A stretch of DNA of 49,254 nucleotides from Clostridiales bacterium (GTDB lineage Bacteria > Bacillota > Clostridia > Oscillospirales > Oscillospiraceae), in the NCBI GenBank assembly GCA_021205725.1, contig JAJPWY010000038.1, positions 1 to 49,254 on the forward strand, in the 5' to 3' direction. The notes beneath the pieces are model-generated. The model was given only the letters and a program-made list of their open reading frames with translations, ran no database searches and had not been told where the DNA came from. Below are positions 42,412 through 47,676 of the stretch, piece by piece. Each line of letters starts with the position of its first letter. Position 1 is the stretch's first letter. Position numbers and translations under genes: made by a program.

Positions 42412-43015
42412 GATTCATACCTCCCCGGGGCGTCTGTCGCAGGGCGGGGAAGCGGAGGCTGATCCGCAGCACCGTCTCCAGCACAAAGTAAAGCAGCAGG
42501 CTCTCGATGGGCCACAGAAGGGCATTTTTCACCGCCCGGAGGGGAAGCAGCACCAGGAACCCGTCTCCCCCGGTGAGGGAGAGCCAGAAGGTGTTGAGCA
42601 GCATATTGCACAGCAGATTGATGAGCCCCTTGGCAATGAAGCACCGGAGCAGCCGGAACCCCTTCCGCTCTGAGGGGCGGTAGAGCACTACGCCATAGAT
42701 CAGCCCTCCGGCGATGGCCGTCAGGGTGTAGCCGGGAAAATAGGCTCCGCCACCGGTGTTCATCAGGTAGCCCAGCACGTCGGTACACACCCCCGACGCC
42801 ATGCCCACCACCGGGCCGAACAGCATGCCGATGGAGGCGTCGCACAGGTAGCCAAAGGTGATGCGGAGCTGGGGGGTGATCTGGATACGGACATTCAGTA
42901 GGTCTAAGGTGACGCTGATGGCCACGAACAGAGCCGCCAAAGCCAACGCTCTCGGCTCACGCAGCCACCGGGCGGAGGCGGCGAACAGGCCGTCTCCCCT
43001 CTCATGCTCTCTCAT
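42401..43015 (-). CDS. folT: Folate ECF transporter S component
   Basis: This 204-residue membrane protein has six helices after a 22-residue cytoplasmic lead. The start at the ATG at 43015 follows AAAGGAG, and I reject 26 extra residues from 43093. Motifs LAALFVAISVTLDLLNVRIQI, LRITFGYLCDASIGMLFGPVVGMASGVCTDVLGYL and the GGAYFPGYTLTAIAGGLIYG loop match FolT, which binds folate and works with the shared ECF module. The THF riboswitch in its leader and co-transcription with folC strongly support folate as cargo. Confidence 0.92.
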   Translation of the reverse strand: MREHERGDGLFAASARWLREPRALALAALFVAISVTLDLLNVRIQITPQLRITFGYLCDASIGMLFGPVVGMASGVCTDVLGYLMNTGGGAYFPGYTLTAIAGGLIYGVVLYRPSERKGFRLLRCFIAKGLINLLCNMLLNTFWLSLTGGDGFLVLLPLRAVKNALLWPIESLLLYFVLETVLRISLRFPALRQTPRGGMNHDL

Positions 43016-43052
43016 AGGTGACGCTCCTTTGCTTGGCAGGGCCACACAGAGC

Positions 43053-43092
43053 AAAAATGGGATGCCCGCCGCAAAAACGGCGCTGCATCCCA
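43053..43092 (-). terminator. Expression-platform terminator of the THF riboswitch
   Basis: TGGGATGC and GCATCCCA (43058-43065, 43085-43092), with an inner CGCCG-type stem, are followed on the minus strand by five T residues. The 5' arm GGGATGC is also complementary to GCATCCC at the 3' edge of the aptamer, giving the antiterminator. Confidence 0.85.
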
Positions 43093-43109
43093 AAACGTCT
43101 TCCCCGTGC

Positions 43110-43231
43110 GGCAGCGGGATGCGGGCTGAACACTGCTGGTTTTTTCAACCGATTCGTCCGGCGGACAACTCCCCGTTCCGCCGGCACTGGGGCAGCCTGC
43201 GCTGCCTCGACACGTCCAGACCTACTCTGCC
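43110..43231 (-). ncRNA. Tetrahydrofolate (THF) riboswitch aptamer
   Basis: On the minus strand the RNA opens GGCAGAGTAGG, contains GTGCCGGCGGAACGGGG and the matching GTTGTCCGCCGGACGAA, and closes GCATCCCGCTGCC. These are the conserved blocks of the folT-type THF riboswitch, and GGCAG/CTGCC form P1. The long-range elements GGGG..GTTG and CCGGACGAA are as expected. THF bound to the aptamer would hold GCATCCC, free the terminator arm and switch folT-folC off. Confidence 0.9.
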
Positions 43232-43248
43232 TGTCAGATTGTGCTCTT

Positions 43249-43276
43249 ATTATAGCCTATCCGCCGGGAATTACAA
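43249..43276 (-). promoter_or_regulatory. Promoter of folT-folC
   Basis: On the minus strand, TTGTAA (43271-43276), a 16-base spacer and a perfect TATAAT (43249-43254). The aptamer begins about 11 bases after the predicted start. Confidence 0.75.
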
Positions 43277-43295
43277 GAGCAGGTGTGATAGCGGA

Positions 43296-43324
43296 TTGAC
43301 TTTTTTGCCGCTCCGGTTTATACT
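43296..43324 (+). promoter_or_regulatory. Promoter of the counter-transcript RNA
   Basis: TTGACT (43296-43301), a 17-base spacer and TATACT (43319-43324), one of the strongest promoters in the window. It is divergent from the folT promoter. Confidence 0.75.
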
Positions 43325-43330
43325 ATAGAT

Positions 43331-43424
43331 ACAGCAAGGGGCGCTGCCCGGTAACGGTTGGCCCCTAGTTGTTGGTTACAGAAGTAACCGCCAGGTTAGG
43401 ATCCGGGGCGGTTACTTCTTTTTT
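43331..43424 (+). ncRNA. Candidate antitoxin RNA (RatA-like counter-transcript)
   Basis: Between a strong promoter and a perfect 13-bp terminator (43380-43392, 43407-43419, then T run to 43424) lie about 94 bases with no reading frame. It contains a GGGGC..GCCCC hairpin near 43338-43365. It also has a GGTTAC-AGAA-GTAACC hairpin (43374-43389) that competes with the terminator's left arm. Its 3' end overlaps the last codons of the minus-strand peptide gene, the geometry of txpA/ratA-type type I systems. It could alternatively be an attenuated leader for the gene at 43741. Confidence 0.6.
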
Positions 43425-43492
43425 GCCTGAAAGAACAGGCTGACAATGCCGATAATCACAAGGCAGAATTGATAGAACTCTGATGTACTCAT
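43412..43492 (-). CDS. Putative holin-like type I toxin peptide
   Basis: This 26-residue peptide reads MSTSEFYQFCLVIIG then IVSLFFQAKKK: a short polar start, one membrane helix (about residues 9-22) and a lysine-rich end. This is the layout of the Firmicutes 'putative holin-like toxin' family (TxpA/BsrG relatives). The ATG at 43492 follows GGAGAGGGGGG. That ribosome site can pair with an upstream CCCCCTGA, and GGGCAGC upstream can pair with GCTGCCC just before the ATG, so translation is probably held low, as in known type I toxins. The 3' end overlaps the plus-strand RNA. No homology search was possible. Confidence 0.65.
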   Translation of the reverse strand: MSTSEFYQFCLVIIGIVSLFFQAKKK

Positions 43493-43674
43493 CGGGCAGC
43501 CCCCCTCTCCTGAAATCAGGGGGCAAAAGAAGCTGCCCCCGTGAAGGGGCCAACCGCCACCGCATTGGGCAGCACCCAGCCCCCGAAGGGGCCTGCCACA
43601 GGATAACATATCTCCCGACGAAAAGCAGCAGAAACAGGCCACAGAAAAGTCAGAACCGGATTTCCTCCCTGCCC

Positions 43675-43703
43675 TTGCACTTTTGACCGGGACGCATTAC
43701 AAT
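43675..43703 (+). promoter_or_regulatory. Promoter of the PHP phosphatase gene
   Basis: TTGCAC (43675-43680), a 17-base spacer and TACAAT (43698-43703), about 37 bases before the start codon. Confidence 0.65.
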
Positions 43704-43740
43704 ATCCACAGGAAATTTGCGCCCGGGAGGTTCTGCCGCC

Positions 43741-44553
43741 ATGTCTCTCATCGATCAGCACATCCATTCCACCGTCTCCTTTGACGGCCACAGCAGCCGG
43801 ACGGAGATGGCCCGGGCCGCTCTGAGCCGGGGCGTGAGCGGCCTGTGCTTTACTGACCACTACGACGTGGTCAATGAGAAAAACCAGCTCGTCCCCGTCT
43901 ACGACTGGGCCCCTGCCCGCCGCCAGCAGCAGAAGGCGCTGACCGCCCTGGGCGGAGAGATGGAGCTGCGCTACGGTCTGGAGCTGGGCAACGCCCCGGC
44001 GGACTTCGCCGCTGCCGAGCGTGCCCTGCAGGAGCCTGGGCTGGACTTCGTCCTGGGCTCCATCCACAACGCCAGCGCCGCACTGGGCTGGCAGGACTAT
44101 TATTATGTCAACTTCACCGACCCGGAGCAGTGCTACCGCTATCTGGACGACTACTTTGACGGCCTGGAGGCTCTGATGGCCTGGGGCAACTTCGACTCCC
44201 TGGCCCACCTGCCCTATCCTCTCCGGTACATGGCCCAGCGGGACGGCCAGAGGGTGGGCCTGGGGCCCTATGAGGAGCGGGTCACCGAGCTGCTCCGCTC
44301 CCTGGTGCGCACCGGCAAGGCCCTGGAGGTCAACAGCAGCAAGTCGGAGACCCTGATGCCGGAGTACGCCTGGCTGCTGGAACGATACCGTGGTCTGGGC
44401 GGAAAATTGGTCACGGTGGGCACCGACGCACACCGGGCCGCCGACGCCGCCCGGGGCCTGCGGGAGGCCTACGCCCTGCTGGAGGGTAAGGGCTTTACCC
44501 GGGTGGCCCTGTACTGGAACCGGACGCCGGAGCTGGTGCCCTTTTGCCTGTAA
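43741..44553 (+). CDS. PHP-domain phosphatase, histidinol-phosphatase-like
   Basis: This 270-residue metal-dependent hydrolase starts at the ATG at 43741 after CGGGAGG. PHP motifs run in order: DQHIHSTVSFDGHS (metal-binding His-x-His), CFTDHYDV, a conserved Glu region (GLELGNAPAD), FVLGSIHNA, and the closing TVGTDAHRAADAARG. The pattern matches HisK-type histidinol-phosphatases (HisJ family), which carry out the penultimate step of histidine synthesis. No other his genes are nearby, so a different phosphoester substrate is possible. It lies 33 bases ahead of the fumarase-type gene, probably in the same transcript. Confidence 0.85.
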   Translation: MSLIDQHIHSTVSFDGHSSRTEMARAALSRGVSGLCFTDHYDVVNEKNQLVPVYDWAPARRQQQKALTALGGEMELRYGLELGNAPADFAAAERALQEPGLDFVLGSIHNASAALGWQDYYYVNFTDPEQCYRYLDDYFDGLEALMAWGNFDSLAHLPYPLRYMAQRDGQRVGLGPYEERVTELLRSLVRTGKALEVNSSKSETLMPEYAWLLERYRGLGGKLVTVGTDAHRAADAARGLREAYALLEGKGFTRVALYWNRTPELVPFCL

Positions 44554-44586: not shown

Positions 44587-45429
44587 ATGAGAGAGATCAC
44601 CGCCGAACAGATCACACAAACCGTCCGGGCGCTCTGCATCCGGGCCAACTGCCAGCTGCCGGAGGACGTGCGCTGTGCCATTCGTGCCGCCCGGGAGACG
44701 GAGGTTTCCCCGGTGGGGCAGTCCATTTTGGGCGACGTGGTGGAAAACTTTACCTTCGCCGGGGAACGGCAGCTCCCCATCTGCCAGGACACCGGCATGG
44801 CGGTGGTCTTCTGCGACCTGGGCCAGGAGGTACACATCACCGGTGGTCTGCTCTCCGACGCCGTTGACCGGGGGGTATCCCTGGGCTATACTGAGGGGCA
44901 TCTTCGGTGCAGCGTGGTGGCCGACCCCCTTCGCCGGGTCAATACCGGGGACAACACCCCCGCCGTCCTCCATCTCCGGCTGGTGGAAGGAGACCAGCTG
45001 TCCATCACTGTGGCTCCCAAGGGCTTTGGCAGCGAGAATATGGCCAGCCTCTCCATGCTCAAGCCCTCCGTCACCCGGGAGCAGGTGGAGGATACCATTG
45101 TGGAGGCGGTGTCCCGGGCGGGCTCCAACCCCTGTCCCCCAGTCATCGTGGGCGTGGGCCTGGGCGGTGACTTCGAGCTGGCGGCCCTTCTCTCCAAGCG
45201 TGCCCTTCTCCGCCCACTGGACGAGGACAATCCCGACCCCTATTACCGGGAGATGGAGGAGCGCATCCTGGACAAGGTCAACCGTCTGGGCATCGGACCC
45301 CAGGGCCTGGGCGGACGCACTACCGCCCTGAAGGTGAGCATCCTGACCCATCCCACCCACATCGCCGGACTGCCCTGCGCCGTCAACCTGAACTGCCATG
45401 TGGCCCGGCACGCCTCGGCAGTATTGTGA
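44587..45429 (+). CDS. Class I fumarase / tartrate dehydratase, alpha subunit
   Basis: This 280-residue protein covers the N-terminal (alpha) half of iron-sulfur hydro-lyases that interconvert fumarate and malate. The three cluster cysteines are visible: Cys66 in PICQDTGMAV, Cys183 in GSNPCPPVIVGVG and Cys270 in NLNCHVARHAS. The GGDFELAALLSKRALLR segment is also typical. Two-subunit forms are normally encoded alpha then beta. Here no beta subunit follows; hpf is next. Either the beta gene lies elsewhere or this alpha protein acts alone. The ATG at 44587 follows AAAAGGAGAG. Confidence 0.9.
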   Translation: MREITAEQITQTVRALCIRANCQLPEDVRCAIRAARETEVSPVGQSILGDVVENFTFAGERQLPICQDTGMAVVFCDLGQEVHITGGLLSDAVDRGVSLGYTEGHLRCSVVADPLRRVNTGDNTPAVLHLRLVEGDQLSITVAPKGFGSENMASLSMLKPSVTREQVEDTIVEAVSRAGSNPCPPVIVGVGLGGDFELAALLSKRALLRPLDEDNPDPYYREMEERILDKVNRLGIGPQGLGGRTTALKVSILTHPTHIAGLPCAVNLNCHVARHASAVL

Positions 45430-46274: not shown

Positions 46275-47429
46275 TCAATACTTCTTGCAGACAGGAGCAT
46301 TGGCGGCGGCGGACTCGGGGTCGAACCACACCAGGTTGTTGCCGGTCTGCTTGTCGAACAGCTGGAGCAGGTCGGCGGGGAAGGTGAAGTGAACCGTCTT
46401 GGTGCTGCCGTCGATCAGGCCCTGATCCAGGCCCACGGTGGAGACCACCAGAACCACCTCGTCGCCGTTGCAATCGGTGTGCAGATGCAGGGAGGAACCC
46501 ATCATCTCGCAGACCTCCACGCTGGCGCTCAGGCCGCCATCGCCCAGGGTGACGTGCTCAGGACGGATACCGGCGACGATGTCGCAGGGCTGCTGGTTGT
46601 TGGCCCGGAGAGCCTTCTGGTGCAGCTCGGACAGCTCGAAGTCGGTGCCCTTGATCTGGGCATAGTACTTGCCCTGCTTGACAATCAGCTTGGCATCGTT
46701 GAAGAAGTTCATCTGCGGGGTGCCGATGAAGCCTGCCACGAACAGGTTCACGGGGCAGTTGAACAGCTCCTGGGGAGTGCCGATCTGGTTGACGAAGCCG
46801 TCCTTCATGATGACGATACGGTCGCCCAGGGTCATGGCCTCGGTCTGGTCATGGGTAACATACATGAACGTGGTCTTGATACGGCTGCGCAGCTTGATGA
46901 TCTCAGCACGCATCTGGTTCCGCAGCTTGGCGTCCAGGTTGGACAGAGGCTCGTCCATCAGGAACACCTTGGGCTCACGGACGATAGCACGGCCGATGGC
47001 CACACGCTGACGCTGACCGCCGGAAAGCGCCTTGGGCTTCCGATCCAGATACTGGGTGATGCCCAGAATCTCAGCAGCCTCCTCCACCTTCTTGTCGATC
47101 TCGGCCTTGGGAACCTTCTTCAGCTTCAGAGCGAAGGCCATGTTGTCCCGCACGGTCATGTGGGGATACAGAGCGTAGTTCTGGAAGACCATTGCGATGT
47201 CACGATCCTTGGGGGCCACGTCGTTGACCAGGCGGTCGTCGATGTACAGCTCGCCCTCGGAGATCTCCTCCAGACCGGCGACCATACGAAGGGTGGTGGA
47301 CTTACCGCAGCCAGAGGGACCGACCAGAACGATAAATTCCTTATCGGCGATCTCCAGGTTGACGTCATGGACGGCGGTAACCTTGTTGTCATAGACTTTC
47401 TTCAGGTTTTTCAGTTTTACAGTTGCCAT
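46275..47429 (-). CDS. Carbohydrate ABC transporter ATPase (MsmX/UgpC-type)
   Basis: This 384-residue protein is the energising subunit of CUT1 sugar importers. Walker A is GPSGCGKST (near 37-45). The Q-loop is VFQNYALYPHMTVRDN, the signature LSGGQRQRVAIGRAI, Walker B VFLMDEPLSNLD, and the H-loop YVTHDQTEAMTL. The C-terminal regulatory OB-fold/TOBE region (about 240-375, GIRPEHVTL) is present. No permease or binding-protein gene adjoins it, so it is probably a shared ATPase like MsmX. It has a good promoter, an unusually long structured leader (about 245 bases) and a weak ribosome site (GGAAG, 3 bases from the ATG). Confidence 0.92.
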   Translation of the reverse strand: MATVKLKNLKKVYDNKVTAVHDVNLEIADKEFIVLVGPSGCGKSTTLRMVAGLEEISEGELYIDDRLVNDVAPKDRDIAMVFQNYALYPHMTVRDNMAFALKLKKVPKAEIDKKVEEAAEILGITQYLDRKPKALSGGQRQRVAIGRAIVREPKVFLMDEPLSNLDAKLRNQMRAEIIKLRSRIKTTFMYVTHDQTEAMTLGDRIVIMKDGFVNQIGTPQELFNCPVNLFVAGFIGTPQMNFFNDAKLIVKQGKYYAQIKGTDFELSELHQKALRANNQQPCDIVAGIRPEHVTLGDGGLSASVEVCEMMGSSLHLHTDCNGDEVVLVVSTVGLDQGLIDGSTKTVHFTFPADLLQLFDKQTGNNLVWFDPESAAANAPVCKKY

Positions 47430-47676
47430 TGCTTCCGACTCTGACAGAAGAGCCTCCGCAGCTTCTGCCTCAGCGCTGTGTGCTTTATCACAGTGCCATT
47501 ACGACAGGTCTCCACACTGCCGCACCGCGAGCCTTGCGGGGATGATTGACCTCCTCTTTGAATGTACGCCGACCATATCGTGGAGTGGCCGACGCCATGG
47601 GGATGATATATATTCCGGGGCAAAGCCCCAAAATACCAATGAAAAAGGTATCGGGAAAAGAGCTTCCCACTCCACG
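47430..47676 (-). promoter_or_regulatory. Long structured leader of the sugar ABC ATPase gene
   Basis: The predicted RNA starts with CGTGGAGTGG (47667-47676), which pairs perfectly with CCACTCCACG (47579-47588). Inside this closed domain of about 98 bases lie three further hairpins: GGGAA/TTCCC, GATACC/GGTATT and GGGGC-TTT-GCCCC. A GAGGAGG with no start codon follows outside it. I recognise no known riboswitch class, and no terminator is seen. Confidence 0.5.

Follow-up and report, generated by a model that had tools for sequence, protein, structure and literature searches.

Between two housekeeping genes, folT and a PHP-domain gene, in a contig of a gut-type clostridial bacterium, we identified a compact cassette that we consider likely to be a mobile, multi-copy type I toxin-antitoxin module whose expression would be held off in three layers. 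The window, by which we mean the whole stretch of 49,254 nucleotides that was analysed, carries on its minus strand a 26-codon open reading frame (ORF) for the hydrophobic, lysine-tailed peptide MSTSEFYQFCLVIIGIVSLFFQAKKK and on its plus strand the gene of a predicted antisense RNA. An earlier annotation made from the letters alone (the sequence-only reading) had paired this tiny predicted toxin with the counter-RNA; that observation is confirmed, and the system is larger than first described. The predicted toxin mRNA contains a long inverted repeat of approximately 27 pairs, formed by segments A and B with their partners A' and B', that joins its 5' and 3' ends, and the coordinated changes in this repeat among related cassettes suggest that the mRNA is locked for safety by pairing between its ends. 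The features of the cassette are collected in Table 1.

Table 1. Elements of the cassette, numbered from the first nucleotide of the window.
Feature	Position	Strand	Details
Antitoxin promoter	43296-43324	+	TTGACT-17-TATACT; promoter scan
Antitoxin RNA	~43331-43424	+	start placed by the -10 element, 3' end by the U tract
Segments B' (43365-43350) and A' (43349-43339)	43339-43365	-	predicted toxin mRNA 3' end
Inverted repeat across the last Lys and stop codons, also the antitoxin terminator stem	43380-43419		loop 43393-43406 variable
Terminator stem halves	43380-43392/43407-43419	+	followed by TTTTTT, 43419-43424; read directly from the sequence
Predicted toxin ORF	43412-43492	-	26 codons plus stop, hydrophobic, KKK tail; frame in ORF list
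Ribosome-site/start-region hairpin	43494-43540	-	GGGCAG of segment C (43540-43532) with CUGCCC (43499-43494)
Ribosome-site hairpin, second pairing	43523-43519 with 43505-43501	-	CCCCC with GGGGG
Segment B, second 5' half of the 5'-3' pairing	43546-43561	-	GGUGGCGGUUGGCCCC; partner 43350-43365
Segment A, 5' half of the 5'-3' pairing	43567-43577	-	GGGUGCUGCCC; partner 43339-43349
5' terminal hairpin, predicted toxin mRNA	43578-43593	-	GGCCCC-UUCG-GGGGCU
Toxin promoter	43600-43628	-	-35-like CTGCTT (43628-43623), 17-nt spacer, extended -10 TGT-TATCCT (hexamer 43605-43600); read from the sequence

The peptide frame is present in the ORF list, and the claim of a plus-strand RNA with its own promoter and terminator is borne out at the sequence level by a promoter, by a stem with a terminal T tract, and by a match to our antitoxin covariance model R1 at 43332-43423 (R1 was built from 46 rows, the window sequence among them). 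A scan of 42500-44500 on both strands returned four promoter-like sites, against 0.3 expected from shuffles. The corresponding scan for terminator-like sites did not list the stem at 43380-43419 because its loop is longer than the 8-nt maximum of the scan. On the minus strand, the -35 element of the toxin promoter is degenerate and weaker than the TTGCTT of the closest relatives (L003 and L004), and the predicted mRNA would start near 43593 with a terminal hairpin whose stem letters differ among copies, some of which lack the hairpin. Rfam gave no RNA family at the gathering score across 43250-43720. Around the cassette, a tetrahydrofolate riboswitch (Rfam THF, 64.9 bits) lies upstream of folT at 43110-43231 on the minus strand, and a promoter-like site at 43276-43249 (minus strand) diverges from the antitoxin promoter. 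Further along, a malK-I RNA motif (47424-47603, minus strand, 129.5 bits) precedes a gene that we take, from its sequence, to encode an ABC transporter ATPase.

Homology among non-orthologous copies of the cassette spans approximately 43296-43637 at its widest, that is, from promoter to promoter, and because this stretch is conserved in copies that are not orthologous, we exclude chance as the source of its features. Read in the direction of the toxin, the order comprises an extended -10, the variable 5' hairpin, segment A (GGCGCUGUCC type), segment B (CGGUUNGCCCC type), segment C (GGGGGCAGC), CUUCUU, GCCCCC, the ribosome site GGAAAGGGGG, GCUGCCC, the start codon and the peptide. The lysine codons follow, with the stop codon inside the repeat AAGAAGTAACCGCC..GGCGGTTACTTCTT, and after a spacer that varies among copies come B' and A'. 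A short T-rich stretch leads from there to the antitoxin promoter, which lies on the opposite strand. The overlap of the antisense RNA with the 3' end of the toxin gene, part of the sequence-only reading, is conserved across cassettes. We collected 92 distinct cassettes, of which 72 had both ends defined, 70 were folded and 60 were aligned after removal of near-duplicates (alignment A2). Among the 86 with enough downstream sequence, the antitoxin-promoter pattern occurs in 85 and the toxin extended -10 pattern in 68, both being pattern counts made without a shuffled control. One pattern check covered seven loci and fitted three of them.

Seventy genus cassettes were also compared side by side after removal of three duplicates. 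In approximately nine of these (L016, L041, L044, L054, L011, L037, L048, L049 and L060), a recurrent GC-rich element, seen in two related-looking forms and in either orientation, adjoins the toxin 5' region or stands in its place. Rfam returned no family for the element at the five such loci searched, and it may be the end of a mobile element that prefers the cassette.

The evidence for pairing between the ends of the toxin mRNA comes from folding, covariation and a test of strand. In minimum-energy folds of 70 toxin RNAs delimited from the promoter patterns, the 5' 65 nt pair with the last 50 nt through at least 10 pairs in 70 of 70 and at least 25 pairs in 65. The mean duplex energy was -50.0 kcal/mol for true partners and -43.5 kcal/mol for swapped ones, and none of 5000 permutations did as well. 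For the covariation analysis that had been proposed across relatives we used the 60 aligned cassettes. Of all cells in the 27 A:A' and B:B' pairs, 92.3% hold a standard pair; 17 of these pairs have changed on both sides, and changes from one Watson-Crick pair to another occur at many of them. Doubly changed cells numbered 89, compared with 19.8 in shuffles and 7-16 in slid controls, although the cells are not independent, as the copies are related.

Because this relatedness inflates covariation counts, we added a strand test, which exploits the asymmetry of wobble pairs: a G-U cell in the toxin sense corresponds to A-C when the opposite strand is taken as functional. Counting cells that are, again, not independent, segment B gave 110 G-U against 10 A-C and inner segment A gave 26 against 5; over all 11 A:A' pairs the bias was modest (37 against 20). 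The ribosome-site hairpin gave 51 G-U against 9 A-C. The repeat across the Lys and stop codons, read in the toxin sense, showed the reverse (6 against 26), which is the pattern that selection for a terminator on the antitoxin strand would leave. The local hairpin that B' and A' form, which on the plus strand is the antitoxin 5' hairpin (43339-43365), showed no overall strand bias (70 against 68). We rejected it as a toxin terminator: read in the toxin sense, its three inner pairs come out mostly as A-C or C-A, so that the hairpin seems designed for the antitoxin strand. In the toxin sense there is no clean intrinsic terminator after A'. As A' and B' lie beyond the repeat at the coding end, we infer from these evolutionary patterns that the toxin mRNA would read through the antitoxin gene, so that one transcript would span both ends.

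This evidence also gives a new meaning to a 12-bp block that the sequence-only reading had noted in inverted orientation at 43355-43366 and 43545-43556. The block is present, and segment B covers most of its 43545-43556 copy, but the 5'-5' recognition proposed for it has to be rejected as stated because the two RNAs carry the same sequence near their 5' ends and are there identical, not complementary. On the covariation and wobble evidence, the block would instead be part of the 5'-3' complementarity of the toxin RNA.

The earlier claim that the ribosome site and start codon lie in pairable GC-rich repeats holds for both repeats in Table 1, and 94.8% of 650 cells of this hairpin are paired in the 60 aligned cassettes. 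Its covariation is low, with six doubly changed cells, below three of six slid controls. We also considered a "trim to open" switch, in which loss of the 3' end would expose the ribosome site, and rejected it because the predicted folds do not support it: the site was 0.30 unpaired at full length and 0.25 unpaired without the 3' end, becoming more open in nine of 70 cassettes and less open in 19. The start region moved from 0.17 to 0.20 unpaired (15 cassettes more open, four less). In the 52 cassettes with segments located, removal of the 3' end lowered pairing of segment C with the start region from 0.27 to 0.00 and raised pairing of B with C from 0.01 to 0.16. As the ribosome site does not open in these predictions, we suggest that expression is blocked first of all by the local hairpin, with the 5'-3' lock adding a second layer.

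These folds bear on a simpler reading, in which the cassette is a plain BsrG/TxpA-like module, the antitoxin overlap and ribosome-site hairpin suffice, and the terminal repeat is a shared stabilising 5' hairpin that the toxin RNA never reaches. A ribosome site that stays closed upon 3' truncation agrees with this, as do the conserved 5' hairpin of the antitoxin itself and a general layout that is that of bsrG/SR4 and txpA/RatA as far as described in the part of a 2019 review available to us (PMC6562991). The bsrG locus of phage SPbeta, which we used as a control, also has some 5'-3' complementarity (z -3.5 against mononucleotide shuffles), with a longest stem of 8 bp compared with at least 11 in the cassette family; given this weaker match, the 5'-3' feature may predate the family. 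Shared hairpins alone, however, predict neither the toxin-sense G-U compatibility of segment B nor the exchanges between Watson-Crick pairs at many A:A' and B:B' positions, and we consider this simpler reading unlikely. Predicted pairing between the ends of the toxin mRNA also extends to distant relatives. Twenty of the 27 order- and class-level loci L224-L250 were picked by eye and 18 of these measured (all but L225 and L239) against approximately dinucleotide-preserving shuffles: 14 of the 18 have a 5'-3' duplex with z below -3, L247 reaches z -2.0, and the remaining three lack such a duplex.

The peptide is under purifying selection. Across codons 2-19 of 74 distinct coding sequences, the median dN/dS was 0.195 (quartiles 0.12 and 0.30), from the 1458 of 2701 pairs that were usable, i.e. 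unsaturated and with at least three synonymous differences. A comparison with Hol_Tox profiles, suggested by the sequence-only reading, failed for the window peptide itself: Pfam gave no family and no Hol_Tox match at E values up to 10, NCBIfam gave one weak match below cut-off to a sorting-signal model (E 0.088), and PHROGs one weak match to a family of unknown function (E 0.23). Among close relatives, two of 25 matched Hol_Tox weakly (best E 0.16), and of five divergent genus peptides two came within 1.2 bits of the cut-off and one matched weakly. Ten distant relatives, nine from order or class level and one from the family, gave two matches above the 23.3-bit cut-off (33.8 bits, E 3e-8; 25.2 bits), four below it and four without a match; the best scorer, L229, also has strong 5'-3' pairing (z -7.6). 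BsrE/BsrG-type peptides belong with Hol_Tox. The window peptide resembles Hol_Tox (PF16935), a family of putative holin-like toxins and the nearest protein family to emerge, in being short, with a single hydrophobic stretch, an acidic residue near the N terminus and a basic tail, and differs in falling below detection; since order- and class-level relatives bridge the two, it is probably distant kin of Hol_Tox, not a member by the cut-off criterion.

The antitoxin consensus comprises a conserved 5' hairpin followed by the terminator hairpin, whose loop is hypervariable. YUNR, a U-turn motif with a role in antisense pairing, is present in 59 of 66 distinct terminator loops, compared with 35.4 (sd 3.9) in mononucleotide shuffles. 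Loops were compared in the 61 cassettes that fit the loop pattern, all from genus loci. Where toxin genes are at least 95% identical, loop identity is 0.63 within genomes (n=11) and 0.66 between genomes (n=32), so that greater divergence within than between genomes was not seen; over all cassette pairs it is 0.63. The 60 nt ahead of the start codon are 87-88% identical in pairs with such near-identical toxin genes. As the loops that accompany near-identical toxins are no more alike than loops in general, their divergence far outpaces that of the toxin; module-specific recognition probably explains this, and recombination could have the same effect.

Model R1 matched 27 of 32 genus genomes, two of which hold at least 30 matches each; owing to the palindromic terminator, some matches on one strand overlap others on the opposite strand, and their numbers are thus not module counts. 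We examined 59 matches, namely the 62 of 123 scoring at least 43 bits, minus two repeats of another locus and one cut-off match; those left out score lower, and many lie on the opposite strand of a listed match. By script, 42 of the 59 have a toxin ORF, 14 do not and three are at contig edges. By eye, two of the 42 ORFs look false (L034:110 and L329:351), and some belong to another sequence group (e.g. MSATEIFMFCQFIVGMCELFLIIYYNNKKK or MVTYSDLIQIGILIVNIIGLWFLANKKK); among the 14, one has a peptide beside masked bases (L325:739) and two (L334 and L335) share an identical sequence. The 46 loci of this sample were chosen mostly because the toxin search had missed them. Conversely, one of the 86 toxin-found cassettes lacks the antitoxin-promoter pattern, and although the two samples were drawn differently, this asymmetry (14 of 59 against one of 86) fits a toxin and its antidote. 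Loss of the peptide frame with retention of the RNA, which the sequence-only reading had named as counter-evidence, thus occurs in a minority of copies, as would also be expected of a toxin with an antidote, and the remaining copies keep the frame. In four cases, antitoxin-like copies without a recognisable toxin adjoin complete cassettes (L020:1179-1271, L045:79-168, L008:1172-1264 and L034:110-202).

The cassette recurs well beyond the window. In keeping with the expectation that peptide and counter-RNA would co-occur elsewhere in the genome (2.12 Mb, 89 contigs), contig C10 holds a second copy with all elements present, the antisense promoter and terminator included, and a peptide that is 96% identical over 25 residues; this copy adjoins two tRNA genes. 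By peptide search (E 0.01 or better), 20 of 32 genomes of the genus match, with up to 11 matches each, some in tandem approximately 400 bp apart. A 25-row alignment (A1) matched 51 of 400 genomes and 29 of 106 genera in the family, with up to 17 matches per genome. Peptide matches fall to 26 of 394 genomes at the order level and four of 391 at the class level, own genome counted. Among the best 80 of 146 matches, the named contigs include Colidextribacter, Pseudoflavonifractor, Flintibacter, Lawsonibacter and Oscillibacter records, with a few from differently named bins. Locus L162, a copy in Colidextribacter sp. OB.20, shows both promoter patterns. Viral contigs of IMG/VR contain 23 cassette loci; the peptide was recognised in 21, of which 15 show the antitoxin-promoter pattern and six do not. 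A search of plasmids and annotated phages with one 26-residue relative as the query gave no match.

Taken with the conserved promoters, the selection on the peptide, the antisense overlap, the ribosome-site hairpin and the decayed copies that keep the antitoxin, this abundance of loci supports the type I toxin-antitoxin reading at the level of sequence. The low dN/dS would be compatible with any function, including regulation or signalling by a small membrane peptide that the antisense RNA keeps at a set level; many copies per genome, carriage on viral contigs, antitoxin genes that outlast broken toxins (in a selected sample) and the distant kinship to Hol_Tox make such a role improbable. The scattered and tandem copies, and the presence of the cassette at only three of 30 PHP loci examined (G000, G013 and G007), could likewise suggest a MITE-like inverted-repeat element with the peptide as a passenger. 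Transposition ends are an unlikely identity for the terminal repeats, given that both promoters are conserved outside them, and with homology running from promoter to promoter, purifying selection on the peptide and a strand-specific wobble bias that is an RNA-level signal, we regard this explanation as very improbable. At L092 (in G013), the sequence to the left of the cassette departs from that of the window beyond approximately 43288, which places the change of neighbourhood directly at the antitoxin promoter. The notion that the plus RNA is a leader of the similarly oriented PHP gene (43741) or part of folT regulation can practically be discarded, as the RNA ends in a terminator-like hairpin of its own, 27 of 30 PHP loci lack the peptide and many copies lie elsewhere. 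The PHP gene itself is found in 31 of 32 genus genomes and, at 30 of 30 loci examined, lies close to the gene that follows it (ORF 44587-45429, plus strand), presumably a fumarate/tartrate hydratase alpha subunit.

Returning to the three-layered toxin-antitoxin module, we propose the following scheme. The minus strand would yield an mRNA of approximately 260 nt for a 26-residue, single-helix peptide that would be toxic at the membrane, and the plus strand an RNA of approximately 94 nt with full complementarity to the final codons and the 3' region of the toxin mRNA; the toxin Lys codons would double as the U tract of the antitoxin terminator. In the first layer, the local GC hairpin would shut the ribosome site and start region. 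In the second, the full-length mRNA, having read through the antitoxin gene, would pair its 5' end with its 3' end over approximately 27 bp. This lock would stabilise the inert RNA and set up the exchange that forms the third layer, in which the antitoxin would replace the mRNA's own 5' end on the toxin 3' region. First contact would probably occur through the U-turn loop of the antitoxin terminator hairpin, and the resulting long duplex would probably decay by RNase III. A more specific proposition, on which we are evenly divided, is that this is a clostridial type I family in which the mRNA closes 5' to 3' with a near copy of the antitoxin 5' end, the two competing for one site, and in which hypervariable U-turn loops prevent cross-talk among paralogues, of which some genomes have more than a dozen.

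The cassette would add a toxin-antitoxin family whose window copy has no Pfam match and nothing at cut-off in NCBIfam or Rfam; the family is frequent in one family of gut bacteria and also occurs on viral contigs. Its comparative evidence suggests that a clostridial toxin mRNA closes 5' to 3', as Hok and AapA1 do, and because near-identical toxins occur with unrelated antitoxin loops, module specificity can be tested directly. The titles and abstract openings of the mostly non-subscription literature searched contained no account of this family or of a 5'-3' lock in a Gram-positive type I system.

Among known systems, par/fst of plasmid pAD1 (RNAI-RNAII) comprises convergent RNAs with 5' repeats and a shared terminator region, a layout that the cassette resembles. 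The par/fst repeats are direct and give complementary RNAs, whereas the long repeat of the cassette is inverted and gives near-identical 5' ends; fst-like direct repeats were rejected as its basis for this reason, and a short direct repeat, GCTGCCC, is present in the window cassette.

According to the 2019 review, the B. subtilis systems have 3'-overlapping antitoxins and ribosome sites that four or five GC pairs keep shut, and bsrG/SR4 and bsrE/SR5 make loop-loop contact through U-turn motifs (PMC6562991). The cassette resembles bsrG/SR4, bsrE/SR5 and txpA/RatA in sequence and predicted pairing, with an antitoxin over the toxin 3' end, a GC-held ribosome site and U-turn loops; of the txpA/ratA logic invoked in the sequence-only reading the layout stands, and for txpA/ratA it is from layout that the likeness is drawn. 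In contrast to these systems, the predicted overlap covers the whole antitoxin, the antitoxin terminator is encoded in the Lys tail and the cassette occurs in many copies per genome, and its 5'-3' complementarity is longer than that of bsrG. For Gram-positive systems the same review names hairpins at the ribosome site, ribosome sites that are too strong, rare start codons and pseudoknots that have been proposed, and it assigns the processing of long inactive mRNAs to Gram-negative bacteria, and the term "long-distance" is absent from the portion available (PMC6562991). In C. acetobutylicum, a transcription start site lies near a holin-like toxin, according to one study (PMC9045289).

A study of AapA3 describes 5'-3' closure, transient hairpins and module-specific antitoxins (PMC6733600). 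The cassette shares with hok/Sok and aapA/IsoA the pairing of the toxin mRNA ends, predicted here from covarying complementarity, and local hairpins over the ribosome site, and would share with aapA/IsoA the module-specific antitoxins that are known there and proposed here. It differs from both in that 3' trimming is not predicted to open the ribosome site, in its clostridial host, and in an antitoxin whose 5' end is a near copy of the 5' end of the toxin.
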